Shown one piece after another: positions 29,441-45,128 of a stretch of 64,000 bases of DNA. The stretch is from the NCBI GenBank assembly GCA_029233925.1, contig JARGOX010000005.1, positions 124,001 through 188,000 of the forward strand, in the 5' to 3' direction. The DNA comes from Rhizobiaceae bacterium. GTDB lineage: Bacteria; Pseudomonadota; Alphaproteobacteria; Rhizobiales; Rhizobiaceae. Within the stretch, counting starts at the first letter, position 1, and the number at the start of each line of letters is the position of its first letter. A program made the translations under genes and the position numbers. Under the pieces are notes generated by a model that had not been told where the DNA came from, did not search any database, and saw nothing but the letters and a program-made list of their open reading frames with translations.

Positions 29441-29494
29441 ACACTTCCGGCAATCCCGAGTGTGTAAATTGCTGTCATTCCTGCGCAGGCTATG

Positions 29495-30003: not shown

Positions 30004-30018
30004 AAACAAACGTTTGAC
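30004..30018 (+). promoter_or_regulatory. Probable TetR operator (copy 1) before the TRAP transporter
   Basis: AAACAAACGTTTGAC contains the palindrome CAAACGTTTG (30007-30016). It lies 79 nt before the TAXI gene start. The same motif occurs at 34778-34792 (reverse orientation) and 43437-43451, with looser copies at 38950 and 39058, all in promoter gaps of this island, which encodes one TetR protein. Confidence 0.68.
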
Positions 30019-30096
30019 ATAACAAAGGAGGCCAGTTAGCTTGATAGGCGTGTGGGAGGACCGCACATAGAATGAATGTCTTTTTGGGAGGAAACT

Positions 30097-31308
30097 ATGC
30101 GTAAATCGCAGGATAAATCAGGTGTATCCCGTCGCAACGTACTCAAGCTTGGTGGGCTCGGTGTCGCCAGCGCAGCGGGTGTGGCGGGTGCCGTGTTTAC
30201 ACCGCACGTATCGAAGGCCGCTACAGGCATGGCTGACACGTTGATTTTCAAATGTCACGGTGCCGGCTCGGGCAATATCATTGCAACGGCAATTGCAGAC
30301 GCCTTGCAAAAGACGACATCCGCACGGATCCGAATTTCGCCGGCAGCCAATGGCGTAGCGCTGGTATTGCCGCTCAAGCTTGGCGGCGCCGACTACACAT
30401 TCGCCGCCAACGAGCTGTTTTTTGCATCGGAAGCCTCCTATGAATTTGGTACGCGTGACTGGGGCGGCCCGCAAAAATTGCGCATGGTGCTGGCGCCGCC
30501 GAAAGCTCTGGCTCTGGCCAGCGCGAAGGACGCCAATATCTTCACGCCGAAGGATCTCAAGGGCAAGCGCGTTGGCTACGTGAAAGGCAGCCCGTCGGTC
30601 AACGTCAAGACCGATGCCTATCTTGCCTTTGCCGGCCTGACGCGCGACGATGTCGAGGTCGTCTGGCTCAGCAATTCGTCAGTCGGCTCGAAAGAGGGGC
30701 TGATCAACAACCAGATCGATGCCGTGACCTACACCACCAACTCTCCGGTCATGAAAGAGGTTGAAATGTCCTCGCGCGGCCTGCGATGGGTCGAGTTCTC
30801 GCCAGATGACAAGGAAGGCTGGGCGCGGCTTCAGGCGATCATGCCGGCGATTACGCCGCGCCGCGATACCAACGGCGAAGCCATGTCTGAAGAGCATCCA
30901 GTCGACATCATGGGCTGGAAATATCCCCAGATCGCCTGTTACGATACACGCGATGCCGATGAGGTTTATGCGTTCACCAAGGCGCTGGACGAGTCCTTTG
31001 ACATTTACAAGACCGCGCACCCCGATATAGGCAACCTGCATATCTCCAAGGCTGGGCATGCGCCCGCTGACGTTCCGTTCCACGAAGGAGCGGTGCGCTA
31101 TCTCATCGAGAAGGGCGTGTGGAACGATGCTGACCAGGATTGGCAGGACAAGCGCCTGGCCCGCCAAGCTGCTTTACAGGAGAAATGGGACGCAGCGAGC
31201 GATGCCTTTGGACCTTGGCTTGCCAAGCAAAAATCTGAAGGAAAGGTCGAAAGCGACGATGCAGCCTGGGAGGAATTCTGGGAAGGATTCCGCACCGGCA
31301 AGATTTAG
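30097..31308 (+). CDS. TAXI-family TRAP transporter solute-binding protein
   Basis: 403 aa from the ATG at 30097, with GGGAGGA 6 nt upstream; the in-frame ATG at 30076 would precede this ribosome site. A twin-arginine signal peptide is visible (SRRNVLKLGGLG, then a hydrophobic alanine/glycine segment to about VSKAA), so it is probably exported folded. The mature part follows the TAXI pattern: FKCHGAGSGNIIATAIADAL, the DLKGKRVGYVKGSPSVNV block, and the NNQIDAVTYTTNSPV region. It captures a carboxylate-type ligand in the periplasm for the permease downstream. The ligand is unknown; the island suggests an acid that becomes a CoA ester. Confidence 0.9.
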   Translation: MRKSQDKSGVSRRNVLKLGGLGVASAAGVAGAVFTPHVSKAATGMADTLIFKCHGAGSGNIIATAIADALQKTTSARIRISPAANGVALVLPLKLGGADYTFAANELFFASEASYEFGTRDWGGPQKLRMVLAPPKALALASAKDANIFTPKDLKGKRVGYVKGSPSVNVKTDAYLAFAGLTRDDVEVVWLSNSSVGSKEGLINNQIDAVTYTTNSPVMKEVEMSSRGLRWVEFSPDDKEGWARLQAIMPAITPRRDTNGEAMSEEHPVDIMGWKYPQIACYDTRDADEVYAFTKALDESFDIYKTAHPDIGNLHISKAGHAPADVPFHEGAVRYLIEKGVWNDADQDWQDKRLARQAALQEKWDAASDAFGPWLAKQKSEGKVESDDAAWEEFWEGFRTGKI

Positions 31309-31315
31309 CACAACT

Positions 31316-31346
31316 GTCACCCGCCGCTTTTCACGCGGCGGGTGAC
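31316..31346 (+). other. Intercistronic 12-bp hairpin between binding protein and permease
   Basis: GTCACCCGCCGC (31316-31327) pairs perfectly with GCGGCGGGTGAC (31335-31346) around TTTTCAC. There is no T-run. Hairpins here commonly protect the upstream mRNA so that the binding protein is made in excess over the permease; that role is inferred. Confidence 0.75.
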
Positions 31347-31448
31347 TGGGCAGACGACATCGATTTATCGTGCGGATTTTCCACATTTTTTGCGACCGGC
31401 GATGCAGAAAAAACCGCTATACCGACCGGCAGGTTAAGGAATCTCAAA

Positions 31449-33377
31449 TTGAAGCCTGATGAATTTGCATTTGAAGCGCAGGAACGCAAACTCCCGCAGT
31501 TTGCCGACGCCATCGCGATGGTGCTGGGGCTGGCCGGGATCGTGGTCGGGCTCAATCACATCCTCGGCCTTCGCATTCTGGGCATCGTCCTGATCGAGAA
31601 CGTCTTTCTGTACATCGAAATGGTGCTGTTCCTGTCCATCACCTTCCTGCTCTATCCGGCTCGCAAGAATCACCACGGCGGTGTTCCATGGTACGACTGG
31701 ATTCTTTTTGCCTTATGCGCAGCCACCTGCAGCTACCTGGCCTGGAACGGTGAAAACATTGTTAATCTGGGCTGGGTGTACCGCGCGCCGATCACCATGA
31801 CGCTCGCCAGCGGCATTCTGTGCATTCTTGCGCTGGAGGCTGTTCGTCGGGTTGGCGGCCCGGTCATCCTGATCGTGTGCACGGTTTTTGCAGTCTTTCC
31901 GATGATCGCGCATGTCATGCCCGGGTTCCTGTGGGCACCGCAGCTGGAAATCGGCACGGTTTTGCGTGAACACGCCCTTGGCAGCGATAGCATCCTGGGG
32001 CAGCCAATCAAGGTCGTGACAACCGTCCTGATGGGTTTTCTGATATTTGGTGCCGCACTGATCGTCACCGGTGGCGGCCGATTTTTCATGGACATTGCCA
32101 TGGCGTTGCTGGGACGCACACGCGGCGGCACTGCCAAAGTCTCTATCATGTCGAGCGCTCTTTTCGGCTCGCTGAGCGGCAGCGTCCTGTCGAACATCGT
32201 AACGACCGGTCGGCTGACGATCCCGGCGATGCGGCGGGCAGGCTATCCTGCCAGCTATGCAGCGGCAGTCGAGGCGTGTGCGTCAACCGGTGGCACCCTG
32301 ATGCCGCCGGTGATGGGTGCAGTCGCCTTTATCATGGCTGATTTCCTGCGCATCTCATACGCTGAAGTCGCGATTGCCGCCATCGTACCTTCAATGCTGT
32401 TCTATCTGGCGCTGATCCTGCAGGTCGACATGTTTGCCGCGCGAAACAAGCTGCAGGTGCCGCCTGCCGATGATCTGCCCGACTTGTGGGAAGTGCTGGC
32501 GCGCGGATGGCATCATCTCGCCGGGCTGGTGCTGCTGACCTACCTGCTGATTGGCATGCGGCTGGAAACCTATGCACCCTATTATGCGACGGTCTTTGTC
32601 ATCGGCGTGGCACTTCTCCGCCGCCAGATCGGGCTGCGACACCTGGTGAATCTGTTGGCCGAGAGCGTGCGCACGATCGTCAATATTTTCGCCATTCTGG
32701 CTGGCATCGGCATGGTCATTGGTGCGCTGACCTTTACCGGCATTGGTGCTGCATTCTCGCGTGAACTCATCTTGTTTGGCGGCCAGAATGTGTTTCTCCT
32801 CCTGGTGTTCGGCGCGATCACGAGTTTCATTCTCGGCATGGGTATGACGATCACGGCGTGCTATCTGTTGTTGGCCACGATCCTCCCGTCCGCACTGATC
32901 CAGCAGGGCCTTGATCCAGTTGCTGTGCACCTGTTCATCTTGTACTGGGGGATGTTGTCCTTCATCACACCGCCCGTTGCACTGGGTGCGATGGCCGCGG
33001 CCAGCATTGCGGGAGCTGAAACCATGCCGGTCGGACTCAAGAGCATGCGGATCGGCGCCATCCTGTTCGTGCTGCCGTTCATGTTCGCCCTCAGCCCGGA
33101 ACTGATCCTGCATGGCGCGTTTGTCGACTGTGTCATTGCGATTGCTACGGCAAGCATCAGCGTGCTGCTGATCTCCCAGTGTCTGGAAGGTTGGGCCTAC
33201 CGGATCGGGGTCATTGGCGCTGTGCCGCGCGCACTTTTCCTGATCGCCGGTGCTACGCTGCTTTATCCTGGTGTCTACACCGATCTGATTGGCGCCGGCT
33301 TTGCAGCGCTAGGCTTTGGCAGCGCCTGGCTGAACCGCCAAAGGTCCGGCAAGTTGCCTACACTCGATAGCGCCTAA
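31449..33377 (+). CDS. TRAP transporter fused permease (4TM/12TM, DctQM-like)
   Basis: 642 aa with a TTG start (AAGGA 8 nt upstream) and no ATG nearby. About four helices at the N-terminus (small-subunit part, residues 20-165) are fused to a DctM-like 12-helix part. The latter shows the family block SIMSSALFGSLSGSVLSNIVTTGRLTIPAMRRAGY and the EACASTGGTLMPPVMGAVAFIMADFLRI segment, repeated in divergent form at TPPVALGAMAAASIAGAETM. Fusion of both subunits is the rule for TAXI-type systems. Transport is driven by an ion gradient. It forms one operon with the binding protein. Confidence 0.93.
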   Translation: MKPDEFAFEAQERKLPQFADAIAMVLGLAGIVVGLNHILGLRILGIVLIENVFLYIEMVLFLSITFLLYPARKNHHGGVPWYDWILFALCAATCSYLAWNGENIVNLGWVYRAPITMTLASGILCILALEAVRRVGGPVILIVCTVFAVFPMIAHVMPGFLWAPQLEIGTVLREHALGSDSILGQPIKVVTTVLMGFLIFGAALIVTGGGRFFMDIAMALLGRTRGGTAKVSIMSSALFGSLSGSVLSNIVTTGRLTIPAMRRAGYPASYAAAVEACASTGGTLMPPVMGAVAFIMADFLRISYAEVAIAAIVPSMLFYLALILQVDMFAARNKLQVPPADDLPDLWEVLARGWHHLAGLVLLTYLLIGMRLETYAPYYATVFVIGVALLRRQIGLRHLVNLLAESVRTIVNIFAILAGIGMVIGALTFTGIGAAFSRELILFGGQNVFLLLVFGAITSFILGMGMTITACYLLLATILPSALIQQGLDPVAVHLFILYWGMLSFITPPVALGAMAAASIAGAETMPVGLKSMRIGAILFVLPFMFALSPELILHGAFVDCVIAIATASISVLLISQCLEGWAYRIGVIGAVPRALFLIAGATLLYPGVYTDLIGAGFAALGFGSAWLNRQRSGKLPTLDSA

Positions 33378-33854
33378 TCGCCGACCGAAATACGAGGAAG
33401 CGAATCACCCGTCATTGCGCAAAGGGATTTGCAGGGCCCTTGGGCTGTAGCCGGACGTTGAAATTCTGGTTTCATTGCTTCCGCCGCAACTGAAAGTCTG
33501 TCCGACTGCGGTGAAACAGGCAATGTCCAACAGGGCCCGCTGCAGGATCGTCATCTGGAGAGAGAACCCAGACCTGTTCATGTCGATTCCCTTGCGTCTC
33601 AAGGCGCATTGAGCGCATCCGGGAGCTTGGCCATTCGGAGTGAGTACAGCCCCATTATGGTCAAGGCCAGCGCTCAGTAGCGCTGCCGGAGGGCGGTTCC
33701 AAACAACTTTTTGCAACCGCGACCTGTCGGTTCCTTCAAACAGAAAATCCATTCGTCAGGGGACGGCGCGCGGCGACCGGGTACATTGCCAAACAGCAAT
33801 ATTCCCAGACTTGATACCGAACAAGCCGGCCTGCAGCTTGTCTGGCCGGTTTGC
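33378..33854. other. Gene-free gap between TRAP permease and convergent sulfurtransferase
   Basis: About 475 bases. A 115-codon open frame on the minus strand (33405-33752) shows no recognisable family and no good ribosome site, so I do not call it. No strong hairpin was seen. Confidence 0.5.
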
Positions 33855-34730
33855 CTAGCCGGTTTGCATTGGCAGGTCGGGATCGGCCGCCCACTCGTTC
33901 ATCGAACCGTCATAGACGCTGACATTATTTTGGCCGGTCATTTTGAGGGCAAGGGCGACACAGGTGGCCGAAACACCGCCGCCGCAATAGCAAATAATCG
34001 GTTGATCGGCCGAAACCCCGGCTGATGCGAAAATTTCGGCGAGCTCGTCATGAGGGCGCAGAACACCAGTCTGAGGATCCAACAGTGTGTTCGCCGGAAT
34101 ATTGATGCTCGAGGCGATACGTCCGGGCCGACCATGGTGGATCGTGTCGGGATCGCCTCGAAATTGCTCTGGCGGCAGAGCGTTGACCAGCAAAGCATTC
34201 CGCGTATCGATCGCCGACAGGACCGCGTCCCTTGCAACAAAATGCGGTGGTGCGGAGGAGACACTCAAAGATGCAGGCGGATAGAGCGTGATCGCACTGG
34301 TAACAGGCCGCTTTTCGGCAAGCCATTTGGGCAGACCTCCGTCGAGCAGGAAGGCATTGGTAAATCCGATGTCCATCAGCATCCACAGGACGCGCGTTGC
34401 CCACATGTAGTGGGTTGCACTGTAGAGGATTACCTGTGTGTCATCGCCAACACCGAGGGCCGCCATTGTTGAAGCAAAATCGCTGCGCGCGGGCATGGTA
34501 AAGCGCAACGGACTGACCGGATCAGAAATGTCCTTTTCCAGATTGATATGGCAGGCTCCAGGGATGTGCTTCATTGCCCATTCATCGCGCCCACTTTGCA
34601 CACGAAACACCGTTTCAGGGTCGGGCAGAAGATAGGCCGTACAATCGTATATTCTAATTTCCGGTGCGTTCAGATTTGCCGCGAGCCAGTTGGTGCTCTT
34701 GAGCGGCAGGTTACCTGGGTATTCGGTCAT
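33855..34730 (-). CDS. Two-domain rhodanese/3-mercaptopyruvate-type sulfurtransferase (first copy)
   Basis: 291 aa; ATG at 34730 with AAGGAG upstream. Two rhodanese domains: an N-terminal one with IRIYDCTAYL and GACHIN but no cysteine in its active loop (ILYSATHYMW), and a C-terminal one with catalytic Cys in IICYCGGGVSAT. SseA/TST enzymes have CG-S/R-G loops, so the CGGGVSA loop is a variant. They move sulfane sulfur from thiosulfate or mercaptopyruvate to acceptors. It is divergent from the acyl-CoA ligase across the operator at 34778. A paralogue with the same loop lies at 38033, so the island appears built around sulfur handling. Confidence 0.88.
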   Translation of the reverse strand: MTEYPGNLPLKSTNWLAANLNAPEIRIYDCTAYLLPDPETVFRVQSGRDEWAMKHIPGACHINLEKDISDPVSPLRFTMPARSDFASTMAALGVGDDTQVILYSATHYMWATRVLWMLMDIGFTNAFLLDGGLPKWLAEKRPVTSAITLYPPASLSVSSAPPHFVARDAVLSAIDTRNALLVNALPPEQFRGDPDTIHHGRPGRIASSINIPANTLLDPQTGVLRPHDELAEIFASAGVSADQPIICYCGGGVSATCVALALKMTGQNNVSVYDGSMNEWAADPDLPMQTG

Positions 34731-34777
34731 GGGTGGACTCCTTCCTCATTCACACCATGCCATCACCGACAAATTTA

Positions 34778-34792
34778 TTCAAACGTTTGTTT
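34778..34792 (-). promoter_or_regulatory. Probable TetR operator (copy 2) in the sulfurtransferase/acyl-CoA ligase divergent promoter
   Basis: On the minus strand it reads AAACAAACGTTTGAA, identical over 13 of 15 bases or better to the copies at 30004 and 43437. It sits between two divergent starts (34730 and 34887), well placed to control both. Confidence 0.7.
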
Positions 34793-34886
34793 ACATTTTT
34801 TTGATCGTAGCCTATGTTTCCTGAGATCACGCGCGTGATCGCTATTGGAAGTCGTCACGCGGGGATTTATGGGAGGAAACAATCGC

Positions 34887-36419
34887 GTGAACATCTTTCA
34901 GACGCTGAATTGGCATGCCGGGCGCCGACCCGAAAAACCCGCCGTCTGCGACAAGGACCGGTGCCTGAACTTTCAGGAACTTGTGGATATGACGCAGGGC
35001 ATAGCAGCAAGACTTGATGGCGATGGAATCGGCTTTGGCGAACGTGTCGTGATTCTGTCCGACAATTGCATCGAGACAATTGCCTTTCTGCATGCAACCG
35101 CCTTGACCGGTTGCATCATGGTGCCGGCCAATACGCGCTACGCCGCGGACGAATTGCGCTTTCTGCTTGAAGATAGCGCATCGGCGCTGGTGTTGTTTGG
35201 AACGGCCCATAGGGACCTTCTCAATGCGGCACTAGTAGGACTGGCGACAAAGCCGCGCACAGCTGAAATCGGCGATTATTGCGCAATGCCCACAGCCGCC
35301 TCCATAGCCAAATGGCGCGAGCACAAAGGCTTCGAGCATGCCGATTACGGCTGCATCGCCACAGACGATGTCGCCATGCTGATCTACACCTCGGGCACCA
35401 CATCGCGGCCCAAGGGCGCCATGCTGACCCATGGCAACCTGCTTTGGAATTCGATCAACTACATCATGGAAAGTGAACTGCATCATACCCATTCGGCCAT
35501 CGTTGCGACGCCGCTGTTCCATATTTCTGGTTTTGGCGTATTGCATGGGCCTTTGCTGCATGCCGGCGGAACGCTGTTCATCATCGACCGGTTTTCGAGT
35601 GAGGCGGTAACCGGCGCACTCAAGACTTTCTTGCCCAGTCACCTGTTTCTGGTCTCGGCGATGTGGGTAAAGATGACCGAGGATGAGGGCTTTCTTGCGC
35701 AAACCTATCCCGAGACGACCTTTATTTCGACAGCGGCCGGACCGTTGAGCGAGGCGCGCCAGACGTCCATACGCGACCGGTTCCCAAATGCCGAATTCGG
35801 CTGGGGTTACGGCATGACTGAAAGCTGTGTGACGACAATCAAGTCGCAACGCACGGCAGAACTGGAAGGCCACCCGGGAACCCTGGGATATGGCTGGCGT
35901 CACGTCCAATACCGTCTGGTTGACGAGGCGGGAACGGTGCTGGAACCGATCGGCAACAGCGGTGAACTGCAGGTCAGGGGCCCGGTGGTGTTCAAGGGAT
36001 ACTGGAACAACGAGGAAGCCACAGCGGAGGCTATCATTGATGGCGGATGGCTGAAATCCGGTGACCTGTTCCGGTTCGATGAGGACGGGTTTGCCTATTT
36101 CATCGGCCGATCCAAGGACATGGTAAAGACCGGCGGCGAGAATGTCGCGGCCCAAGAAGTCGAGCAGGCTGTCATCCGGTGCCCCGGCGTACTCGATGCA
36201 GCCGCGTTCGGCGTGCCAGACGACCATCTCGGCGAGATGCTGTGTGTTGCGATTGAAACAGTGGCGGAAGCGAATTTGAGTGAAACCGCGGTGCGCGATT
36301 TCTGCCGAACGCAGTTGGCGGGTTTCAAGGTGCCCAAGCGGGTTCACTTCGTGGATGCGCTGCCACGCTCGTCATCCGACAAACCCCAGAAATTCAAACT
36401 GACGGAAATGTTCAAATGA
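34887..36419 (+). CDS. AMP-dependent acyl-CoA synthetase/ligase
   Basis: 510 aa from the GTG at 34887, which follows GGGAGGA by about 9 nt; an ATG at 34869 and a TTG at 34845 precede that ribosome site and are disfavoured. The ANL-superfamily motifs are complete: LIYTSGTTSRPKGAML (A3), GWGYGMTES (A5), WLKSGDLFRFDEDGFAYFIGRSKDMVKTGGENV (A7-A8) and the catalytic lysine in DKPQKFK (A10). It activates a carboxylic acid to an acyl-adenylate and then to a CoA thioester. Its stop overlaps the DUF169 start (ATGA). The substrate is presumably what the TAXI-TRAP system imports, or its product. Confidence 0.92.
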   Translation: MNIFQTLNWHAGRRPEKPAVCDKDRCLNFQELVDMTQGIAARLDGDGIGFGERVVILSDNCIETIAFLHATALTGCIMVPANTRYAADELRFLLEDSASALVLFGTAHRDLLNAALVGLATKPRTAEIGDYCAMPTAASIAKWREHKGFEHADYGCIATDDVAMLIYTSGTTSRPKGAMLTHGNLLWNSINYIMESELHHTHSAIVATPLFHISGFGVLHGPLLHAGGTLFIIDRFSSEAVTGALKTFLPSHLFLVSAMWVKMTEDEGFLAQTYPETTFISTAAGPLSEARQTSIRDRFPNAEFGWGYGMTESCVTTIKSQRTAELEGHPGTLGYGWRHVQYRLVDEAGTVLEPIGNSGELQVRGPVVFKGYWNNEEATAEAIIDGGWLKSGDLFRFDEDGFAYFIGRSKDMVKTGGENVAAQEVEQAVIRCPGVLDAAAFGVPDDHLGEMLCVAIETVAEANLSETAVRDFCRTQLAGFKVPKRVHFVDALPRSSSDKPQKFKLTEMFK

Positions 36420-37207
36420 GCGAGCTTGCATCAGAAATCAACGGCGAAATCCTGAAAGCACATTCGGCAGACCTGGTCGGTCTGTTACGCCTGCGCACCG
36501 AGCCAATCGGGCTCAAGCTGTTCGAGAGCCGGGACAATTTGATGAAAGTGCCCGGCGTTCGCCTCAAGATCGGCGAGCGGCGTTTGACCACCTGCCAGCT
36601 TGTCAGTCAATGTCGTCTGGTGGGTTATACGCTCGGGATCGTCGGCGACTCGGTGATCCGAAACTCAACCTGTTCGGATGTCATTGGCCTGGCAGCAGCC
36701 AGCGAAGACCACCTTTCGGGGCGACGTATGAACGGCCTGTGGTTTGGCAATGGCGAAGCGTCGCGCCAGCATCAGGACCAGATGCCGCGCGTTGAAAAGG
36801 ATCGCTACGAAGGATTGGCGGCTTCGCCCCTGGCAAAGGGGCGCCTGGATCCGCCCGACATCATCCTGCTTTATGCAAATCCGGCGCAGATGATCCTGTT
36901 TATCAATGGCCTGCAGCGCAATGATTACCGTCGCATCGAAATGAGCATTACCGGCGAGAGCGCTTGTGCTGACTCCTGGGGGCGCGCGCTTTCCACCGGG
37001 AACTCGTCGCTGTCGATTCCGTGTTTCGCCGAGCGTCGTTTCGGCGGCGTTGCCGATGACGAACTGCTGTTTGCGCTGACACCTGAGGACTTTATCGAGG
37101 GTGTGGTCGGACTCGGCGAACTCTCCAAGGTGGGGATCCGCTACCCGATACTGCCCTATGGAACCACGATGGATCCGGCTGAAGGCCTGGGTGCAAGCTA
37201 CGATTAA
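36416..37207 (+). CDS. DUF169 family protein
   Basis: 263 aa, translationally coupled to the acyl-CoA ligase by an ATGA overlap. It has the DUF169 layout: an N-terminal block ending RTEPIGLKLFES, a central cysteine-bearing stretch (RLTTCQLVSQCRLVGYTLGIVGDSV, then NSTCSDVIGL), RRMNGLWF, a DIILLYANPAQMILFINGLQ strand pair, then CADSWGRAL and the C-terminal RRFGGVADDELLFALTPED. The family function is unknown. Several conserved cysteines hint at metal or cofactor binding; coupling to the ligase suggests it acts on the same substrate or its CoA ester. Confidence 0.85.
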   Translation: MSELASEINGEILKAHSADLVGLLRLRTEPIGLKLFESRDNLMKVPGVRLKIGERRLTTCQLVSQCRLVGYTLGIVGDSVIRNSTCSDVIGLAAASEDHLSGRRMNGLWFGNGEASRQHQDQMPRVEKDRYEGLAASPLAKGRLDPPDIILLYANPAQMILFINGLQRNDYRRIEMSITGESACADSWGRALSTGNSSLSIPCFAERRFGGVADDELLFALTPEDFIEGVVGLGELSKVGIRYPILPYGTTMDPAEGLGASYD

Positions 37208-37264
37208 TACCCCATGCGCGGAGAACACACTTCCGCAAACCTGATTGAATAGTTGGAGAATCGA

Positions 37265-38002
37265 ATGTCCGGGTTAAAAATTGCACTGGTGACTGGCGCA
37301 GCCAGCAATATCGGCAAAGCGACTGCGGAGGATCTGGGCCGCGACCATCGTGTAATTCTCGCCGATATCGCTGATACCAGCGCGTTGGCCGCGCAGATTG
37401 GAAATGGCGCCATCTCCGTGAGCGGCGACGTCTCGAAAGCCGACGATTGTCAGCGCTGGATCGAGACTGCCAAGCAAGCAGGCGGGCTTTACGCCCTGGT
37501 CCATGCGGCTGGAATTACGCGCGAAACAGTTCCGGCGGGGAAGGTCAAACTGTCCGACTGGGAAGATATCATCCGCATCAACCTGACCGGCAGCTTCATT
37601 CTCATGCAGGCCGCAATGGAATTACTCGCGGCAACGGCAGATTCGAGCGCGGTGCTGCTTTCTTCGCGTGCGGGTCAGGTAGGGGCCTCCGCGCATGGCG
37701 TCAATCCGCAAGCGACCAAGCCACATTATGTGTCATCGAAGGCCGGTGTGATTGCCTTGACCAAAGCATTTGCGATGGAACTTGCTCCCAGGGGCGTCAG
37801 GGTCAACTGCGTTGCGCCTGGCCCGATCGAGGGCCCGATGATACCGCGCGAAAAATGGGGCGCAATCGCAAAAATGGTTCCGCTGGGCCGCCTTGGCCGA
37901 CCGACCGAAATCGCTGCCGCCATCCGATTCCTGTCGAGCGATGCGGCCAGTTTCATCACCGGTCATACGTTGAACATCAATGGTGGCACCTTCATGGAGT
38001 AG
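37265..38002 (+). CDS. Short-chain dehydrogenase/reductase (FabG-like)
   Basis: 245 aa from the ATG at 37265 (GGAGAA 4 nt upstream); a TTG at 37253 is less likely. Classical SDR: cofactor motif TGAASNIGKA near the N-terminus, VHAAGIT (NAG-equivalent), the catalytic serine in LLSSRAG, Y-x-x-x-K in HYVSSKAG, and the PG motif in CVAPGPIEGPM. It most likely oxidises or reduces a hydroxy/keto group of an island intermediate using NAD(P). It lies in the same direction as the ligase and DUF169 genes. Confidence 0.9.
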   Translation: MSGLKIALVTGAASNIGKATAEDLGRDHRVILADIADTSALAAQIGNGAISVSGDVSKADDCQRWIETAKQAGGLYALVHAAGITRETVPAGKVKLSDWEDIIRINLTGSFILMQAAMELLAATADSSAVLLSSRAGQVGASAHGVNPQATKPHYVSSKAGVIALTKAFAMELAPRGVRVNCVAPGPIEGPMIPREKWGAIAKMVPLGRLGRPTEIAAAIRFLSSDAASFITGHTLNINGGTFME

Positions 38003-38032
38003 CAGGCTGGCGATGCCGGTCGGCGTCCACTG

Positions 38033-38911
38033 TCAGCCGGTTTCCATGGGCAGGCTCGCGTCCCTCGCCCATTCGTTTAGCGAGCCATCATAAACCGCCA
38101 CATCAGCATGGCCGGTTATCAGCAAGGCAAAGGAATCGCCGGTGGCAGAGATGCCACCACCGCAATAGCAAATCACCCTGTCCTTGTCCTTGACCCCTGC
38201 CGATGCAAACAGGTCACGCATTTCTTCGGGTGAGCGAAAGGTGCCGTCAGCGGGATTGATCAGGTCGAAGGCATTGACATTGACGCTCGAACTTATCCGT
38301 CCCAACCGTCCGTGATTTATCTCGGTCTCACCGCGATGCTGATCAGGCGGCAGTGCGTCAACAATAATCTTTCCGGTTCCACCGATTGCAGCCAGAACCT
38401 CACCTTTGTCAGCAAAAGCGTCCGGTCGCGGGTGTGCAGTGAGGATAGCGGGTGTGTACAGGCATGGTGTGTTTGAAATAGGCTTGCCTTCGCGCTTCCA
38501 TTTGCTGAAACCACCGTCCAGAACTGCAGCGTTGTCAAATCCGATGGCGCGCAGCATCCACCAGACCCGCGTTGCCCACATCACCTGTCCGGCGGCGTAG
38601 AGCACGACGCGCGTGTCGTCACCTACGCCATAGGCGGCCATGCGTCTGGCGAATTCCTCCGGCGGCAACATGGTTAGCCGCAGACCACTGGACTTGTCGG
38701 AAAGGGCGTCGGGAATATTCAGAAACCCGGCACCGGGAATATGTTCGTTCCACCAATCGCTTTCGCCCGTATATTCACGAAATGTCGTATTCGGATCTCG
38801 GGCAAGGTAGGTGCTGCAATCAAATATGCGCATATCGGGATCGTCGAGGTGATCGCGGAGCCAGTCGGTTGTGACAAGCGAGTCAATTGATGGTTTTCTG
38901 ATGCCGTTCAA
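38033..38911 (-). CDS. Two-domain rhodanese/3-mercaptopyruvate-type sulfurtransferase (second copy)
   Basis: 292 aa from a TTG at 38911 that has GGAG 7 nt upstream; an in-frame TTG at 38935 is the alternative. It is a paralogue of the gene at 33855: same length, inactive N-terminal loop (VVLYAAGQVMW) and an active cysteine in VICYCGGGISATG. Differences are spread across the protein, so this is an old duplication. It converges with the SDR gene and is divergent from the DenD-like gene, with two operator-like motifs between them. Confidence 0.87.
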   Translation of the reverse strand: MNGIRKPSIDSLVTTDWLRDHLDDPDMRIFDCSTYLARDPNTTFREYTGESDWWNEHIPGAGFLNIPDALSDKSSGLRLTMLPPEEFARRMAAYGVGDDTRVVLYAAGQVMWATRVWWMLRAIGFDNAAVLDGGFSKWKREGKPISNTPCLYTPAILTAHPRPDAFADKGEVLAAIGGTGKIIVDALPPDQHRGETEINHGRLGRISSSVNVNAFDLINPADGTFRSPEEMRDLFASAGVKDKDRVICYCGGGISATGDSFALLITGHADVAVYDGSLNEWARDASLPMETG

Positions 38912-38949
38912 TTTCTTTCTCCGCGATTCAATCAAATTTCGCCATAATC

Positions 38950-38964
38950 AAACATACGTATAAT
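38950..38964 (+). promoter_or_regulatory. Operator-like motif (degenerate copy 3)
   Basis: AAACATACGTATAAT keeps the AAACAnACGTnT frame of the copies at 30004, 34778 and 43437 and contains the palindrome ATACGTAT. It lies 39 nt upstream of the second sulfurtransferase's start. Confidence 0.5.
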
Positions 38965-39057
38965 ATATTTACCCATATGCCTCAACTTCGGATCGCTATA
39001 TCCATTATATTCTGTAATAGCTTCACGCAATACGCAGACTCAAATATATTCAGTATA

Positions 39058-39073
39058 AAACAAACGATTGATT
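39058..39073 (+). promoter_or_regulatory. Operator-like motif (degenerate copy 4)
   Basis: AAACAAACGATTGATT differs from the island consensus AAACAAACGTTTGAA mainly by an A in the core. It lies 95 nt upstream of the DenD-like gene. Confidence 0.5.
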
Positions 39074-39167
39074 GAATTTGTAAAAGTTGCTACCGTTGAT
39101 ATCAACCTGATTCATGCAGGTAGAGGAGCCGTGCCGAGCGCACATTACGAACCGTGGAGGTGTGGTT

Positions 39168-40145
39168 GTGAAAGTCGTTCTAACAGGTGCTGGTGGATTT
39201 CTCGGGTCACATGTCGCGCGGGCGCTGCTGGAAAAGGGCACGCTCACCGATTCCGCAGGATGCGTGCTACCCCTTCAGGAACTGGTTGCAGTCGACCTGC
39301 ACCCGATCACCCAGGCATGGAGCGCTGACCCGCGTGTCAAACAGGTCACTGGCGACATTACTGACCCGGCCATTCTGGCCGCCGCCATTACGCCCGATTG
39401 TGTGAGTATTTTTCACTTTGCCGCCATGCTGAAGGCGGATGCATCAAAGGATTTCGCCGCTGCAATGAACTTCAACGTGCGGGCCACGATCGACCTGCTT
39501 GAGCGCTGCAGGGAAATCGGCACGAGACCCAAATTTTTCTTTGCCAGTTCGATAGGTGTCTATGGTGATGGACACACACAGGTCGACAATCTTACCCGGC
39601 ATGCGCCGGTCAGTTCCTATGGCAGCCACAAGGCGATCGGTGAATTGCTGGTCGATGACTATTCGCGCGCAGACGCGGTCGACGGACGCGGTTTGCGTTT
39701 TCCCATGGTTCTGGTCCGACCCGGACGCAACAGCACAGCGGTTTCCGGCATCATGTCGGGCATTATCCGCGAACCGATGCTGGGCGCGGATTTCACCATT
39801 CCTTTTGCTTCGGACCTTCGCATGCCCGTTACATCGGCGCACAATGCCGCTCAGGTTTCGGTGCAGGTGAATGATATGGCGGCCGACAGGTTCACGGAGG
39901 GGAGAACGTTCAATATGCCGTCACTCAATCTCAGCGTCGCTGACCTGGCCGATGCCGTGTCGACACGCGCGCCACACGAGAGCAAGGTCGGCACGTTGAG
40001 TTGGCGCATGGACTCGGCAATCGCGGGTATTTTCAACGGTCGTCCGGAGGCAATCGACAACCGCTGGGCGCTCGACAACGGACTGATGCCCGATGCAAAC
40101 GCGGCGACGATCGTCGACCATTTCATCGATGATTTAGGCCACTGA
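39168..40145 (+). CDS. NAD-dependent epimerase/dehydrogenase, DenD (D-erythronate dehydrogenase)-like
   Basis: 325 aa from a GTG at 39168 with GGAGG 7 nt upstream. Extended SDR: VVLTGAGGFLGSHVARALLEKG (NAD site), FHFAAML, catalytic serine in FFASSIGVYGDG and Y-x-x-x-K in SSYGSHKAIGELLVDDYSR. The segment VDGRGLRFPMVLVRPGRNSTAVSGIMSGIIREPM matches the signature block of DenD proteins as I recall them. Characterised DenD oxidises D-erythronate at C2; here the substrate may be another hydroxy acid. It is followed at 14 nt by the cupin gene. Confidence 0.82.
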   Translation: MKVVLTGAGGFLGSHVARALLEKGTLTDSAGCVLPLQELVAVDLHPITQAWSADPRVKQVTGDITDPAILAAAITPDCVSIFHFAAMLKADASKDFAAAMNFNVRATIDLLERCREIGTRPKFFFASSIGVYGDGHTQVDNLTRHAPVSSYGSHKAIGELLVDDYSRADAVDGRGLRFPMVLVRPGRNSTAVSGIMSGIIREPMLGADFTIPFASDLRMPVTSAHNAAQVSVQVNDMAADRFTEGRTFNMPSLNLSVADLADAVSTRAPHESKVGTLSWRMDSAIAGIFNGRPEAIDNRWALDNGLMPDANAATIVDHFIDDLGH

Positions 40146-40159
40146 ACAGGAGTTTCAAA

Positions 40160-40768
40160 ATGCCCTCTGTCGTAAGCGAACGTCATGAACTTGTGACGAC
40201 TGTCATGGATCGCATCATTGGCATTGTTGCGAGCGGTGCAGTAGAACGCGAAGGTCTCGACCTTATCAGACTTGCGCTGCTGGAACTTACGCAGCGGCCT
40301 GATCTGTTCACGGCGGAGCATTTCCACCCGCCCCGGGATCCGAAGCGCAACTCCAACATGTTTGAACTGTATCGCAGCGATGGCGACGGATCCACGCTGT
40401 ATGTCAGCATTGCCCCGGCCGGACTGACCACTCCTGTGCATTATCATACCACCTGGGCTGTCATTGCCGGATTGCGCGGCGCCGAGTTCAACCAGTTCTA
40501 TACACGAGACGACGCGGGGCGCCCGGTTGCCAGCAACAATTTCGTTGTGGAGAACGGAACTGCGATCACGATGATGCCGAACGACTTGCACTCTATTCGC
40601 ATTGTCGAAACTCCTGACCGCTTCTTCAGCTTCCACCTCTATGGATTGCCGCTGGAACAGGCCACCGAACGGATGTTCTATGTCGAAGATTCCGATGAAT
40701 GGAAATATTTTGCCCATCGCCCGAACATCCGGCAGTTCAATTTGGCAACCGGCCTTGCGGACGGTTAA
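40160..40768 (+). CDS. Cysteine dioxygenase-like cupin (putative thiol dioxygenase)
   Basis: 202 aa; ATG with CAGGAG 8 nt upstream. It has the CDO-family cupin pattern: metal ligands in TPVHYHTTWAVIAGLRGAE (H-x-H) and a third histidine in MMPNDLHSIRI, plus the preceding FELYRSDGDGSTLYVSIAPAG strands. Family members oxidise thiol groups (cysteine, 3-mercaptopropionate, mercaptosuccinate) to sulfinates with O2. Its place directly before a rhodanese gene (14-nt overlap) and between other sulfurtransferases supports a thiol substrate; this is inference. Confidence 0.78.
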   Translation: MPSVVSERHELVTTVMDRIIGIVASGAVEREGLDLIRLALLELTQRPDLFTAEHFHPPRDPKRNSNMFELYRSDGDGSTLYVSIAPAGLTTPVHYHTTWAVIAGLRGAEFNQFYTRDDAGRPVASNNFVVENGTAITMMPNDLHSIRIVETPDRFFSFHLYGLPLEQATERMFYVEDSDEWKYFAHRPNIRQFNLATGLADG

Positions 40769-42380
40769 AGCGCGCGACGTCACCACGCGCTATCGCGATG
40801 GCTGTGAGATTTCCCTTCTCGACGTGCGGGAGCAGTGGAGTTACAGCCGCGGCCATGCGCTGCTGGCCTCCTCCTGCCCGTTCAGTTCCCTGGAGCTGAT
40901 GATCGAAGATTTGGTTCCCCGCAAGTCTGCACCGATCGTGGTTATGGATGACGGAGCCGGGACAGGGAACAATCTGGCCGTACGAGCCGCTGCACGTCTT
41001 TCCGGATTGGGGTACGACAATGTTTCAGTGCTTGCCGGCGGTGCTTCAGTCTGGGCTGCAGCGGGATTCGCGCTGTTTGCCGGCGTCCACGCATTCAGCA
41101 AGCTGTTTGGCGAAGTGGTGGAGCATGACGACGCCCCGCCAACGCTGACGGCCGATCAGCTTGCAGAAGACCTGACACAGAATGCCGAGAATATTGTCAT
41201 CGATGTCCGGCCGCCAGAGGAATTCCAGCGCGCCAGTCTTCCCTGTTCGATCAATATACCAGCGGGCGAATTGTTGCGATCGTTGCAAACAATCGCGCCG
41301 GATGCCAACACGCCGATCGTTGTTCATTGCGGCGGGCGCACGCGTGGAATCATTGCAGCGCAAACCCTGATCGCGGCGGGCGTACCCAATCCGGTCCTGC
41401 TTCTTGAAAACGGGACGATCGGCTGGCGGCTAAGCGGGCGCGATACCGTTGCAGGGGTCGGCAGCTTGCGGCGCATAGCGATAGCGCAAACGGCGCCCGT
41501 GAATGGGCAGTCTGGTAGTAATTTTGTGGCGGCAAGCGGAGCGCGTGAAATCGACTCCACAGGACTTGCTGATACTATCGCTCAGACGCCAACGCGAACG
41601 ACTTACTTTCTCGATGTGCGTTCGCGGGCAGAGTTTGATCGGGGACATCATCCGCGTGCGCGCCATGTTCCCGCCGGGCAATTGGTCCAGGAAACCGATC
41701 AGTTCCTGGCGACGCGCAATGCGCGGCTTGTTCTTTTTGACGACGCCGGCGACCGTGCCGCTTTCGCTGCCTATTGGTTGCGCCGCATGGGTTGGCCCGA
41801 CATCACCTGGTTTTCCCTGGCGGACTGCACCCCAACGATGCTGGTGACGTCGGTCGACGATGAGCCGGCACCTGCATTGCCAATTGACCGCGTTGATCTG
41901 GTGACGCCTGCTGCCGCAAAAACGATGCTGGGCCTTGGCGACGCAGTGATCATCGATCTTTCGTCCAGCCTGGCCTATGAGAAAGGGCATGTGCCTGGCG
42001 CTCACTTTGCCATACGCGCGCAAATACGTGCTGAAACCATGACCAGACTTGGCTCGCAGTCAGACCTTATCCTGACCAGCGAGGACGGCGCACGCGCGGC
42101 CCTGGCAAGCGCCGATATCAGCGAAATTCATGCGGGTCGGATCCGGGTGCTTGAAGGCGGCAATCAGGGGTGGCGTGCAACAGGCTTCGCCCTTGAGACG
42201 GGCCCCACCTCAATGTTGCACAGTCCGCGCGATGTGCGCCGCTCGATCTATGAGGGGTCGTCGGACCTTTCTGCGGCCATGCAGGGTTACATCGATTGGG
42301 AAGAAGCGCTTGTCGAGACTGCCAAAGGGGAGGACTACCTGCCATTCGATTTGCCAAAGGCGTGTGGCTCAGGTCAATGA
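40755..42380 (+). CDS. Four-domain rhodanese protein with one intact active site
   Basis: 541 aa from a TTG at 40755 overlapping the cupin stop; an in-frame ATG at 40695 is the alternative, and neither has a strong ribosome site. Four tandem rhodanese domains are visible. Domain 1 starts at EISLLDVREQWSYSRGH, with VVMDDGAGT in the active loop. Domain 2 starts at IVIDVRPPEEF, with VVHCGGRTRG. Domain 3 starts at YFLDVRSRAEFDRGH, with VLFDDAGDRA. Domain 4 starts at VIIDLSSSLAYEKGH, with ILTSEDGARAA. Only domain 2 retains the cysteine; the others have Asp or Ser/Glu. The rest may bind substrate or partners. It is co-transcribed with the cupin and overlaps the convergent tetR by 7 nt. Confidence 0.85.
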   Translation: MRTVKARDVTTRYRDGCEISLLDVREQWSYSRGHALLASSCPFSSLELMIEDLVPRKSAPIVVMDDGAGTGNNLAVRAAARLSGLGYDNVSVLAGGASVWAAAGFALFAGVHAFSKLFGEVVEHDDAPPTLTADQLAEDLTQNAENIVIDVRPPEEFQRASLPCSINIPAGELLRSLQTIAPDANTPIVVHCGGRTRGIIAAQTLIAAGVPNPVLLLENGTIGWRLSGRDTVAGVGSLRRIAIAQTAPVNGQSGSNFVAASGAREIDSTGLADTIAQTPTRTTYFLDVRSRAEFDRGHHPRARHVPAGQLVQETDQFLATRNARLVLFDDAGDRAAFAAYWLRRMGWPDITWFSLADCTPTMLVTSVDDEPAPALPIDRVDLVTPAAAKTMLGLGDAVIIDLSSSLAYEKGHVPGAHFAIRAQIRAETMTRLGSQSDLILTSEDGARAALASADISEIHAGRIRVLEGGNQGWRATGFALETGPTSMLHSPRDVRRSIYEGSSDLSAAMQGYIDWEEALVETAKGEDYLPFDLPKACGSGQ

Positions 42381-43138
42381 TCGGATCCGGCTTTTGGTTT
42401 GGCCGCGCTCTTCTGATCATCGCTCAAGACGGGCGGCGCCAGAAAACCTGCTGCCAGGAACCCGGCTATGAGCTTGATGTCGCGCGGGCGATTGTGTGGT
42501 TCGAACTCAAACCCCATCAACTCGGCGATCTTGTGTGTGCGTCCGGTGTCTGCCTGTGTGTAAAACATCGTTCCGTACAGGCAGTTTAGGCGCCAGAAGA
42601 ATTCACTGTCCGACAGATGGGGGCAGTGAACCTTCAGCATCCGCCCGAAGCGGGTGCCGATCTCATCGTATCCGCGGTCGATAACGCGTCGCACTTCGGG
42701 CGACGGGTCGACCGACAGCTGGGCTTGCAACCGCGCGAAAAGACTCTTTGGCGGTTTGGAACTCGCCGGATAGCGCAGCGAAGGCATGATATAGGCTTCG
42801 ATCAGGTTTCTAACGGTGTTGAATTGATCCGCATCCTCGACCAAGCACCTGTCAAGAAGTTCGTGGCGTTCCTGGTTGAGCGGAACGATGTGCTTTTCAA
42901 ACAGCGCACGCAAGACGCTTTCCATACCACCGAAATGATAGTGCACCGCAGCCAGATTGACCTTGCTCTCCCGCGTCAATAGCCGCATTGAAACGCCCTT
43001 GAACCCGTAGCGGACAAACAAGCGTTCGGCAGTATCGAGGATGCGCTCCTTGGTGGATGGGGTGCCACTCTTGCTTGACGTTGCCTTCTTGCTGGGGGCC
43101 TTCTTCGGCTCTTTGCTGCCGTCACTTTTGCTTGTCAT
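42374..43138 (-). CDS. TetR/AcrR-family regulator of the island
   Basis: 254 aa from the ATG at 43138; the 17 residues before it in the longer reading lack features. A lysine/serine-rich leader (residues 1-30) precedes the HTH domain (ERILDTAERLFVRYGFKGVSMRLLTRESKVNLAAVHYHFGGMESVLRALF). The C-terminal ligand domain has the FARLQAQLSVDPSPEVRRVIDRGYDEI block seen in CerR/acyl-responsive TetR proteins. It is the only regulator in the island, so it is the best candidate to bind AAACAAACGTTTGAA. The ligand may be a CoA ester made by the island's ligase; this is inference. Confidence 0.88.
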   Translation of the reverse strand: MTSKSDGSKEPKKAPSKKATSSKSGTPSTKERILDTAERLFVRYGFKGVSMRLLTRESKVNLAAVHYHFGGMESVLRALFEKHIVPLNQERHELLDRCLVEDADQFNTVRNLIEAYIMPSLRYPASSKPPKSLFARLQAQLSVDPSPEVRRVIDRGYDEIGTRFGRMLKVHCPHLSDSEFFWRLNCLYGTMFYTQADTGRTHKIAELMGFEFEPHNRPRDIKLIAGFLAAGFLAPPVLSDDQKSAAKPKAGSDH

Positions 43139-43436
43139 AACCCAAAATCCCGAAAACATGCAGTTGCAGGTCTGAAGTCGTTGCGGCACCGCAGACCGCC
43201 TATAAAAAATATGCGTACTTACGATAGTTTAAGCTGTTTTCCTTGGGAAACCAACCTCTCTCCCTGACAAATTTGCGCAGACGCATGAGCAGCAAAAAGA
43301 GCGTTCCCGCCTCCCACCAGACTGACCGCAACACGGCAAGATGTGCCACTTGCACATGAACCCAGTCAAACGTCGGTTTATCCGCCAGGCAGAACAGCTT
43401 CGACCATCGTTCCGGCCCATCTTCCACTCAATAAAC

Positions 43437-43451
43437 AAACAAACGTTTGAA
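43437..43451 (+). promoter_or_regulatory. Probable TetR operator (copy 5) upstream of the GST gene
   Basis: AAACAAACGTTTGAA, the clearest form of the motif, lies in the 427-nt gap between tetR and the GST/enoyl-CoA hydratase pair, 114 nt before the GST start. The rest of this gap shows no gene. Confidence 0.7.
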
Positions 43452-43565
43452 AGAATACTGGACAAGATATGGCAATTCAAATAATGATTGGCTTCATTCG
43501 AAATGCGCGTCTGCAAGTTATGCAGGGGGCGCAAGGTGCTATTCCAGAATTCGCGAGGCAATCCA

Positions 43566-44216
43566 ATGAAACTGAAAATGTATCACGACTCAAACTGCCC
43601 CTATTCGCGCAAGGTGCTGATTATCGCCGCCGAGCACGGGCTGGATGATATTTTCGATTTCGTGTCGCCGTTCACGCCAGAAGGGCTGGAGGGTATTACG
43701 CGGGAAAACCCACTTGCCAAGATGCCGGCTCTGGTGATCAAGCCAGGTTTTGCGATCTTCGATTCGCGGGTAATCTGTCGCTATGTCGATACGCTGGCTG
43801 ACCAGAGCAATTCATTTTATCCTGAGGAGTCGTCCGAACTGTGGCAGGCACTCCGTTACGAAGCACTGGGCGACGGTATGGTTGATGCCGCCATTTTTGC
43901 GCGTCAGGAGCTGACACGGCCGGCTGACAAACACATGGCGGAGCGGATGAAGAAGCAGCTCGGGAAGGTTGACGAGGGTCTCGCTTGCCTGGAGCGCGAG
44001 ATCGATATGCTGGAAGCCTCAATGACGATTGGAAGCATCGCAACGTCCAATGCGCTGGCCTATCTCGATTTTCGCTGGCCGCAGATCGACTGGCGTGACG
44101 GCCATCCCCGCCTTGCAGAATGGTATGCGCAGATCAAGGTGCGTCCAACTTTTGCTGAACACGACTTCGTAGAATCCGACCTGCTGGTCAAGAAGCTGGC
44201 CGCAGCTACTCAATAA
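43566..44216 (+). CDS. Glutathione S-transferase family protein
   Basis: 216 aa from the ATG at 43566 with GAGG upstream. The thioredoxin-fold N-terminal domain begins MKLKMYHDSNCPYSRKV, with a CPYS active-site-like motif, the cis-proline segment AKMPALVI and the glutathione-binding DSRVICRYVD. The all-helical C-terminal domain follows from about residue 90. GSTs conjugate, isomerise or reduce electrophiles with glutathione; in a thiol/CoA catabolic island it may release a sulfur-bearing group. It precedes the enoyl-CoA hydratase by 87 nt containing a hairpin. Confidence 0.88.
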   Translation: MKLKMYHDSNCPYSRKVLIIAAEHGLDDIFDFVSPFTPEGLEGITRENPLAKMPALVIKPGFAIFDSRVICRYVDTLADQSNSFYPEESSELWQALRYEALGDGMVDAAIFARQELTRPADKHMAERMKKQLGKVDEGLACLEREIDMLEASMTIGSIATSNALAYLDFRWPQIDWRDGHPRLAEWYAQIKVRPTFAEHDFVESDLLVKKLAAATQ

Positions 44217-44240
44217 CCAACTTGTCACGCATTGACCTTT

Positions 44241-44263
44241 AGGGCCGGCTTATGCCCGGCCCT
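44241..44263 (+). other. Intercistronic 8-bp GC hairpin between GST and enoyl-CoA hydratase
   Basis: AGGGCCGG (44241-44248) and CCGGCCCT (44256-44263) pair perfectly around CTTATGC. No T-run follows; it is a likely mRNA-stability or attenuation hairpin. Confidence 0.6.
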
Positions 44264-44303
44264 GGGGCGGAGAACAAAATAGAATTAACGGAAGGATGGG
44301 CTT

Positions 44304-45128
44304 TTGAGTAACGAAATCAACTCCGAGTTTGAATGCATAACCTACGAAAAGCTCGACACTATTGCACGGATTTCACACAATCGCCCGAAGGCGAGGAATG
44401 CTGAGAGCCAGCTTCTGCTTGACGAAATGGATGCCGCATTCAGGCGCGCGGAGGCTGACGATGACATCCGAGTGATCATCATCGCTGGAACGGGTGATCA
44501 TTTCTCCGCTGGCCACGATCTCAAGGAGGCGCAGGCAAAGCGTGCCAACTTTACGGTTGAGGAGCGCTGGGCGTATGAGTCGTTGCGCTATTTCGATTAT
44601 TGCATCCGGATCTGGGACAGTCCCAAGCCGACAATCGCCCAGGTTCAGGGCGCTTGCGTGGCCGGCGGTTTCATGATGGCGAACATGTGCGATCTGGTGG
44701 TCGCCTCTGAAGATGCATTTTTCTCCGATCCGGTCTGCCACACGCTGGCTACCGCCTCTATCGAAGTGTTGATTCATCCTTGGGTTATGGGGCTGCGCCA
44801 AGCCAAGCACATGCTGTTTACAGGTGGCCGGCTCAAGGCAGCTGATGCTTTGGCGATCGGCATGGTAAATCTTGTCGTTGCGCGCAGTGATCTTGAGGCG
44901 GCGACATTGGCGGAAGCTGCCAAGGTGGCCGCTGCGCCACCTTTTGCTTTGCGGCTGCTCAAGCGCTCGTTGAACCGCACTTTTGACGTGCAGGGCATGC
45001 GATCGGCGCTGGAAGCCCATTTCGAGATTCACCAGTTGTCGCATGTTACAGAAGAATTTGCGACCAAGCGCTCCGAAGGCCTTGCCGGCGCTATTCGAAG
45101 CGCAAAAACGGTAAGTGATCGCAGTTAG
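44304..45128 (+). CDS. Enoyl-CoA hydratase/isomerase family protein
   Basis: 274 aa with a TTG start (GGAAGGA 9 nt upstream). Crotonase-fold features: oxyanion-hole block GTGDHFSAGHDLKEAQ and second oxyanion segment VQGACVAGGFMMANMCDLVVASEDAFFSDP. The usual catalytic glutamates are not both in place: the region around ATASIEVLIHP has one glutamate. It could therefore be a hydratase, isomerase or a hydrolase-like member. Acting on CoA esters from the island's ligase is the natural guess. It ends the island; the dispersed repeat copy B follows 77 nt later. Confidence 0.87.
   Translation: MSNEINSEFECITYEKLDTIARISHNRPKARNAESQLLLDEMDAAFRRAEADDDIRVIIIAGTGDHFSAGHDLKEAQAKRANFTVEERWAYESLRYFDYCIRIWDSPKPTIAQVQGACVAGGFMMANMCDLVVASEDAFFSDPVCHTLATASIEVLIHPWVMGLRQAKHMLFTGGRLKAADALAIGMVNLVVARSDLEAATLAEAAKVAAAPPFALRLLKRSLNRTFDVQGMRSALEAHFEIHQLSHVTEEFATKRSEGLAGAIRSAKTVSDRS

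Follow-up and report, generated by a model that had tools for sequence, protein, structure and literature searches.

Analysis of a 64,000-nucleotide stretch of a Rhizobiaceae bacterium genome (assembly GCA_029233925.1, contig JARGOX010000005.1, positions 124,001 to 188,000; hereafter the window) revealed an island of 13 genes in a block of about 15 kb, which we read, with a probability of roughly 0.55, as a horizontally acquired catabolic cassette under one TetR repressor, predicted to serve the use of a sulfur-containing carboxylate that would be degraded partly as coenzyme A (CoA) esters. Genome comparisons show an intact 13-gene block, an insertion in this lineage and one putative operator in each of four promoter regions; the imported acid likely contains sulfur, and the substrate and the order of the steps are inferred. 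The genes encode, in order, a TAXI-family TRAP receptor, a TRAP permease, a two-domain rhodanese (A), an acyl-CoA ligase, a DUF169 protein, a short-chain dehydrogenase (SDR), a second two-domain rhodanese (B), a DenD-like extended SDR, a thiol dioxygenase-type cupin, a four-domain rhodanese, a TetR regulator, a glutathione S-transferase (GST) and a crotonase-superfamily protein. Rhodanese A, rhodanese B and TetR are encoded on the minus strand and the other ten proteins on the plus strand. Every gene named in the original prediction, which had been made from the sequence alone, is present.

Sequence comparison identifies the island as a real unit, conserved as a block between differing flanks in two bacteria. 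One genome per species was scanned across 84,980 species, and close relatives of the DUF169 protein were located by short exact peptide patterns, a procedure by which diverged copies would be missed; it yielded 123 relatives, 80 of whose loci were kept. In one of these 80, from Oricola indica JL-62 (L103), the complete set of 13 is present with order and orientation unchanged, at 59-87% identity. At the other 79 loci, many of them short contigs, the TAXI receptor, permease, cupin and four-domain rhodanese were unmatched at E ≤ 1e-6. Translated comparison of the Oricola flanks (about 3.9 and 2.1 kb) with the window gave nothing beyond short, scattered matches; as read from the sequence, one flank encodes ABC permeases and a racemase-like protein, and the other a MerR-like regulator. 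Differences between the two islands fall mostly at third codon positions in all 13 genes, with nonsynonymous divergence (dN) of 0.09-0.32 and near-saturated synonymous divergence (dS) of 1.1-2.1 in 12 genes (the crotonase dS was not computable), so that purifying selection appears to act on every gene of the set.

In the window the island is flanked by a gene for a PBP1-type penicillin-binding protein on the left (27206-29440) and a PagL-like gene on the right (45415-46026). The closest relative, a genome of the same genus (G002), carries the PBP1-type, PagL-like and DnaK genes together, with 97.6, 92.6 and 99% identity to the window, respectively; only about 235 bases separate its PBP1-type and PagL-like genes, and the island is absent, which corresponds to an insertion of about 15.7 kb. 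Homology between the window and this genome ends at about 29,525 on the left and restarts at about 45,221 on the right, with a 31-base overlap that holds a short acaagtctggcctgc repeat. The inserted segment is thus about 29,526-45,220, instead of the 30,004-45,128 given originally. Of the six same-genus relatives fetched, four (G002, G005, G006 and G007) have the three flank genes and lack those of the island; for two others (G003, G004) the stretch taken yielded the PagL-like gene alone, and a seventh (G001) gave no PagL match. Across these seven genomes no match was obtained for the cupin at E ≤ 0.001 or for the ligase at E ≤ 1e-110. The left end of the insert carries a 75% copy of the region upstream of the PagL-like gene, suggesting that the island came in through recombination at a region of similar sequence. 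Imperfect direct repeats at the island edges (29480-29670 and 45205-45345) are 75% identical over 138 bases and are accompanied by acaagtctggcctgc units. Base composition gives no island mark (56.8% against 55.7% G+C).

The original prediction had also pointed to recurring operators, and these are borne out as three exact and one near-exact sites, one per promoter region, kept in Oricola. In the window, CAAACGTTTG occurs exactly at 30007, 34780 and 43440 and with one mismatch at 39061; a fifth match, also with one mismatch, lies outside the island at 63497, and five matches at this tolerance are not rare, being reached in 14 of 100 shuffles. The 14-base form AAACAAACGNTTGA, derived from the same four island sites that it then recovers, matches the 6.1-Mb genome perfectly at four places and no others, every one of them inside the island, and with one mismatch at 17 more. 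Operator 1 (AAACAAACGTTTGA, 30004-30017, plus strand) lies upstream of the TAXI gene, at the same place as in Oricola (L103 3962); operator 2 (34779-34792, minus strand) lies between the rhodanese A and ligase genes (Oricola 8355, one mismatch); operator 3 (AAACAAACGATTGA, 39058-39071, plus strand), between rhodanese B and the DenD-like gene, is identical at Oricola 12627; and operator 4 (43437-43450, plus strand) stands between tetR and the GST gene (Oricola 16951, one mismatch). The 5.1-Mb Oricola genome holds six places with at most one mismatch, against one for the control; four of the six, two of them perfect and two with a single mismatch, lie at the orthologous promoters, and their spacings (4324, 4272 and 4393) agree between genome scan and locus. 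Since the four exact genomic sites are all in the island and the pattern recurs independently in Oricola, the operators are unlikely to be due to chance, and together they seemingly form one regulon of four sites.

The TetR regulator (42374-43189, with an alternative start ATG at 43138; 85% identity to its Oricola counterpart) would be the protein that binds them. It carries TetR_C_30 and is PsrA-like, with a score of 97.9 bits against the PsrA equivalog cut-off of 300. PsrA-family operators read C/GAAAC-N2-4-GTTTG/C, and binding of oleic acid makes PsrA release DNA, according to the excerpted text of PMC13104628; two of the four island operators read CAAAC-N4-GTTTG, the N4 form of such sites. 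The island regulator shares with PsrA-type regulators (PMC13104628, in part) the C-terminal domain, sequence resemblance and operator type, and differs from them in its sub-cut-off score and its seemingly local regulon of four sites. Among 385 genomes, three other relatives of this TetR were found, at 36%, and their 3.6-kb loci, compared with island genes only, contain no other island gene. Operators, block conservation in Oricola and insertion in the lineage together indicate that the 13 genes, as had been proposed, are probably one co-regulated unit; as judged from sequence, both this co-regulation and the thiol-oxidation capacity of the island are well founded.

The latter rests on the cupin (40160-40768; 68% identity to Oricola), which has no Pfam match at E up to 10 and no NCBIfam match at E up to 0.001. 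Its nearest solved protein by sequence is mercaptosuccinate dioxygenase (MSDO) 8vni (6e-17, 65 bits), ahead of 3-mercaptopropionate dioxygenase (3MDO; 42 bits), and a Foldseek search with its model (predicted local distance difference test, pLDDT, 92.0) returned 8vni (1e-16, template modelling score 0.83-0.87), 3MDO (1e-15) and rat cysteine dioxygenase (CDO; 4e-10). The modelled protein shows the family fold, three histidine ligands (His94, His96, His144) corresponding to those of 3MDO (PMC8050391, in part) and a triad Ser157-His159-Tyr161 like the Ser-His-Tyr triad of 3MDO (PMC10966181, in part). By this model it is a true thiol-dioxygenase fold of the CDO/3MDO/MSDO type, in agreement with the initial description of a CDO-like cupin. 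His94, His96, His144, His159, Tyr161 and Arg171 are invariant in all 21 aligned cupins, whereas Ser157 occurs in two rows, the island pair from the window and Oricola alone, six rows having Asn and thirteen His or Met. Arg171 is one residue out of register with the carboxylate-holding Arg168 of 3MDO in the phmmer alignment. In a tree of 30 rows, arbitrarily rooted and with three long rows elsewhere flagged as unsure, the window and Oricola cupins share a long branch (1.55) beside the cupins of L077 and L078, within an eight-row clade (support 100/99); support for the immediate sister grouping is modest (82/78).

At L077 (6480-11144) the cupin, a four-domain rhodanese and two pimeloyl-CoA-type dehydrogenases are encoded on the same strand, and L078 is similar. 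The two L077 acyl-CoA dehydrogenases are similar to the pair of pimeloyl-CoA dehydrogenases, with sub-cut-off scores of 510.7 and 440.9 bits, and at L078 two genes of acyl-CoA dehydrogenase size stand behind the cupin and four-domain rhodanese genes (only those of L077 were scanned). Acyl-CoA dehydrogenase-type genes beside the nearest cupins thus link this branch to CoA esters, and these runs might show the acyl-CoA side of the island's cupin branch.

The cupin stop codon (40766-40768) overlaps the gene for the four-domain rhodanese (40755-42380, start taken as TTG 40755; 59% identity to Oricola). This protein has four Pfam rhodanese stretches and matches 1yt8, which we take to be PA2603, over 508 residues (2e-102), as expected of a protein of that type. 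All 46 rows have Cys192, in domain 2, whereas Cys occurs at the corresponding positions of domains 1, 3 and 4 in 0, 2 and 3 rows, respectively; position 65 is Asp in 44 of 46, 329 Asp in 44 of 46 and 442 Ser in 30 of 46. It probably has one working active site, with the other three domains structural or binding. Of the three rhodaneses first noted all are present, the largest with a catalytic-type cysteine in domain 2 only. Rhodanese A (33855-34730, loop CGGGVSA at Cys249; Oricola 69%) and rhodanese B (38033-38935, loop CGGGISA at Cys258; Oricola 75%) score 171.6 and 162.4 bits against the mercaptopyruvate sulfurtransferase (MST) cut-off of 250, and their loops are similar, not identical, to the MST-type loop CGSGVTA of 1urh. 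In 24 neighbourhoods of two-domain rhodaneses no constant partner was seen; the commonest, alpha/beta-hydrolase-like by sequence, occurred in five.

Of 385 genomes in the class, 77 encode a four-domain rhodanese by a match at E ≤ 1e-30. Forty loci were inspected, five chosen via the cupin and 35, mostly best-scoring, via the rhodanese; a cupin stands beside the rhodanese in 25 of the 40 (20 of the 35). The two are joined in one frame of 714-750 residues in eight of 28 relatives with a usable cupin frame, namely at L056, L070, L072, L076, L080, L084, L089 and L100. Thiol dioxygenase plus four-domain rhodanese is a known and widespread module, in print for mercaptosuccinate and 3-mercaptopropionate dioxygenases. 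The Pseudomonas pair PA2602-PA2603 resembles the island in having a 3MDO gene followed by a rhodanese (TST) gene in one apparent transcription unit, and differs in that no transporter, ligase or TetR is mentioned with it in the excerpt of PMC12947264. The original prediction held that the full combination matched no known pathway; its core is in fact familiar, and what remains new is the setting. The island could bear on the role of the rhodanese beside thiol dioxygenases, a widely found and sometimes fused pair; no answer as to its purpose was found in the open-licence literature consulted.

The transport genes encode the TAXI receptor (30100-31308; TIGR02122, 149.7 bits, cut-off 84.35; Oricola 84%) and, as a separate gene, a fused-type TRAP permease (31449-33377; TIGR02123, 553.2 bits, cut-off 320.65; Oricola 81%), both above their family cut-offs and together identifying a TAXI-TRAP transporter. 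The receptor begins with SRRNVLKLGG, presumably a twin-arginine-like signal. Among 150 other relatives, 14 matched it at E ≤ 1e-50, the best at 40%. No paper treating a cysteine dioxygenase and a TRAP transporter together was found in the open-licence literature, which does not imply absence from print.

Ligase and crotonase support the proposed CoA-ester enzymes. The AMP-binding ligase (34869-36419, start chosen by the analyst; PF00501/PF13193; Oricola 78%) has its stop overlapped by the DUF169 (COG2043) gene (36416-37207; PF02596, 119.2 bits, cut-off 27), followed by the FabG-like SDR (37253-38002; PF13561; Oricola 80%). The DenD-like SDR (39114-40145; Oricola 69%) scores 264.6 bits with NF043036, below the D-erythronate dehydrogenase cut-off of 325; for this protein and the two-domain rhodaneses, sub-cut-off scores mean that the names are resemblances. 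The YibF-like GST (43488-44216, alternative start ATG at 43567; Oricola 77%) and the crotonase (44304-45128; PRK08290 subfamily, NF006140, 342.7 bits, cut-off 280; Oricola 87%) complete the set. A DmdD-like role for the crotonase was considered and dropped, as the two glutamates of the hydratases are seemingly absent on reading the sequence.

According to the proposed scheme, the TAXI-TRAP system would import an organic acid, as its families suggest, and the ligase would form the CoA ester. The cupin would oxidise the thiol form of the acid to a sulfinate, with Arg171 holding the carboxylate; the thiol could be free, or the GST could help to release it from a disulfide, a thioether or a glutathione adduct. 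The SDR, the DenD-like protein and the crotonase would process the carbon chain. Sulfur would exit as sulfite or as sulfane sulfur, which the four-domain rhodanese, through its one active cysteine, and both MST-like rhodaneses would pass to thiosulfate or to acceptors in the cell. TetR is probably induced by the acid itself or by its CoA ester. Whether all this amounts to an undescribed, self-contained and transferable pathway, joining a new thiol dioxygenase subfamily and rhodanese to a CoA ligase, a crotonase and DUF169, with carbon leaving as CoA esters and sulfur as rhodanese persulfides, is a tentative proposition to which we give somewhat less than an even chance. Sharply bounded, and with a repressor gene of its own and a regulon of four sites, the island is a place where the substrate could emerge jointly for the TAXI receptor, the ligase, the dioxygenase branch and DUF169.

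Several observations weigh against a cassette for a sulfur-containing carboxylate. TAXI relatives of about 40% identity on three Rhodobacterales plasmids adjoin genes for CoA-transferases and lyases, with no gene annotated for sulfur metabolism beside them in a gene table described as incomplete. At one locus (L122) the genes for a two-domain rhodanese, a DUF169 protein and an SDR form a cluster that lacks a cupin, and no cupin was detected at 15 of the 40 rhodanese loci inspected. Deletion of tst beside 3mdo in Pseudomonas protegens brought no significant change in 3-mercaptopropionate (PMC12947264, in part). The dithiodipropionate locus of Advenella, with Mdo, the Acd desulfinase and a CoA transferase, is like the island in combining a thiol dioxygenase with CoA-ester chemistry; there, however, desulfination is by an acyl-CoA dehydrogenase, the type of the known 3-sulfinopropionyl-CoA desulfinase, and the locus has TctC receptors and other regulators (PMC5373536, as excerpted). 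The island has a ligase, a crotonase and two dehydrogenases but no acyl-CoA dehydrogenase, so CoA-level desulfination here would need another protein, for which the crotonase is, by inference only, a candidate. As to the regulon, one exact Oricola operator match falls outside the island, and with up to two mismatches AAACAAACGNTTGA gives 154 matches in the window's genome against 95 for its reversed control, so that loose matches are largely background.

Some of these points lend an appreciable, though distinctly minor, chance to the reading that the acid is free of sulfur, the GST joining glutathione to a reactive intermediate, such as an unsaturated acyl-CoA, and the dioxygenase and rhodaneses clearing the resulting thiols, persulfides or sulfite. 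GST and crotonase form one run behind operator 4, which fits this view, as do the TAXI relatives in CoA clusters and the cupin-free L122, to which MaoC-like, crotonase and GST genes may be added. A thiol dioxygenase with intact ligands and three rhodaneses, however, is heavy equipment for mere clearance, and the invariant arginine of the cupin subfamily would fit a carboxylate.

A persulfide route, with a low-molecular persulfide formed or handed on by the rhodanese and then oxidised to sulfite by the cupin, is improbable. It has a counterpart in ETHE1-type persulfide dioxygenase-rhodanese fusions, and the cupin-rhodanese fusions, the overlap of the two genes in the island and the single conserved cysteine of the four-domain protein, Cys192, would all accord with it; against this, the characterised MSDO and 3MDO oxidise plain thiols (PMC5373536 and PMC8050391, both in part).

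Slightly more improbable still is a mercaptosuccinate dioxygenase locus with extra genes, converting mercaptosuccinate via sulfinosuccinate to succinate and sulfite. The comparison originally suggested with Variovorax and Advenella loci proved apt, because the dioxygenase-rhodanese pair also occurs at the Msdo locus: in Variovorax paradoxus B4 and Advenella mimigardefordensis DPN7 a thiol dioxygenase of the same family stands with a rhodanese-domain protein (PMC5373536, in part), and 8vni is the nearest solved structure to the cupin. However, 8vni sits in a separate six-row clade (99/87), with the window cupin outside it and inside the eight-row clade, and the ARY-motif arginine of 8vni and six of 21 rows, in our own reading the defining mark of the mercaptosuccinate dioxygenase family, is replaced by N66 (HMMER) or M67 (MAFFT); a mercaptosuccinate dioxygenase sensu stricto is therefore unlikely. 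Gene content differs as well: the Msdo locus of either strain has a cystathionine beta-lyase, and that of Advenella also includes LysR and an amino-acid ABC transporter (PMC5373536, in part), whereas no metC, LysR or amino-acid ABC gene is among the 13, and TetR, TAXI-TRAP, ligase, DUF169, two SDRs, GST, crotonase and two more rhodaneses are found in the island only. Neither ligase nor crotonase would be needed for mercaptosuccinate. Finally, chance proximity of unrelated genes, most of which do have homologues in other settings, is nearly excluded by the whole block in Oricola with conserved operators between differing flanks.

The DUF169 protein is found at many Acetobacteraceae, Acidimicrobiia and Burkholderiales loci. 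Its neighbourhoods were tried as a clue to the substrate and set aside, since no operon recurs in the 80 loci; as exceptions, a ligase gene adjoins DUF169 at L101 and L137 (the L137 ligase at 47%), and L122 has mixed genes. The latter (8593-13171), from a metagenome-assembled genome labelled Asaia bogorensis, is the source of the MaoC-like, crotonase and GST genes mentioned above, which were named from sequence beginnings only. The parts of the open-licence literature consulted held no function for DUF169. Its AlphaFold2 (AF2) model (pLDDT 86.9) had no fold match at E ≤ 0.001 among 350,542 PDB chains (best 0.2), no sequence match was obtained at E ≤ 1, and all 40 aligned rows share Cys86, Cys184, Cys203, His119 and Asp186; a new enzyme fold is possible on this model.

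Elsewhere in the host genome, on contig C3 (L283:1268-4449), a SoxC gene (636 bits, cut-off 420) lies beside SoxB (827.7 bits, cut-off 550). Given these two genes, thiosulfate can probably be oxidised further by the host, which is taken here as context and no more; SoxB/SoxC could in this way act on thiosulfate released through the island. Among plasmid relatives of the dioxygenase-rhodanese pair, the gene order is metC-cupin-rhodanese in Aminobacter and cupin-metC-rhodanese-rhodanese in Caballeronia. In Caballeronia sp. NK8 (L102:10789-14835) the tandem rhodanese genes behind cupin and metC both match the four-domain protein, and a TauE/SafE sulfite exporter gene comes next on the opposite strand.

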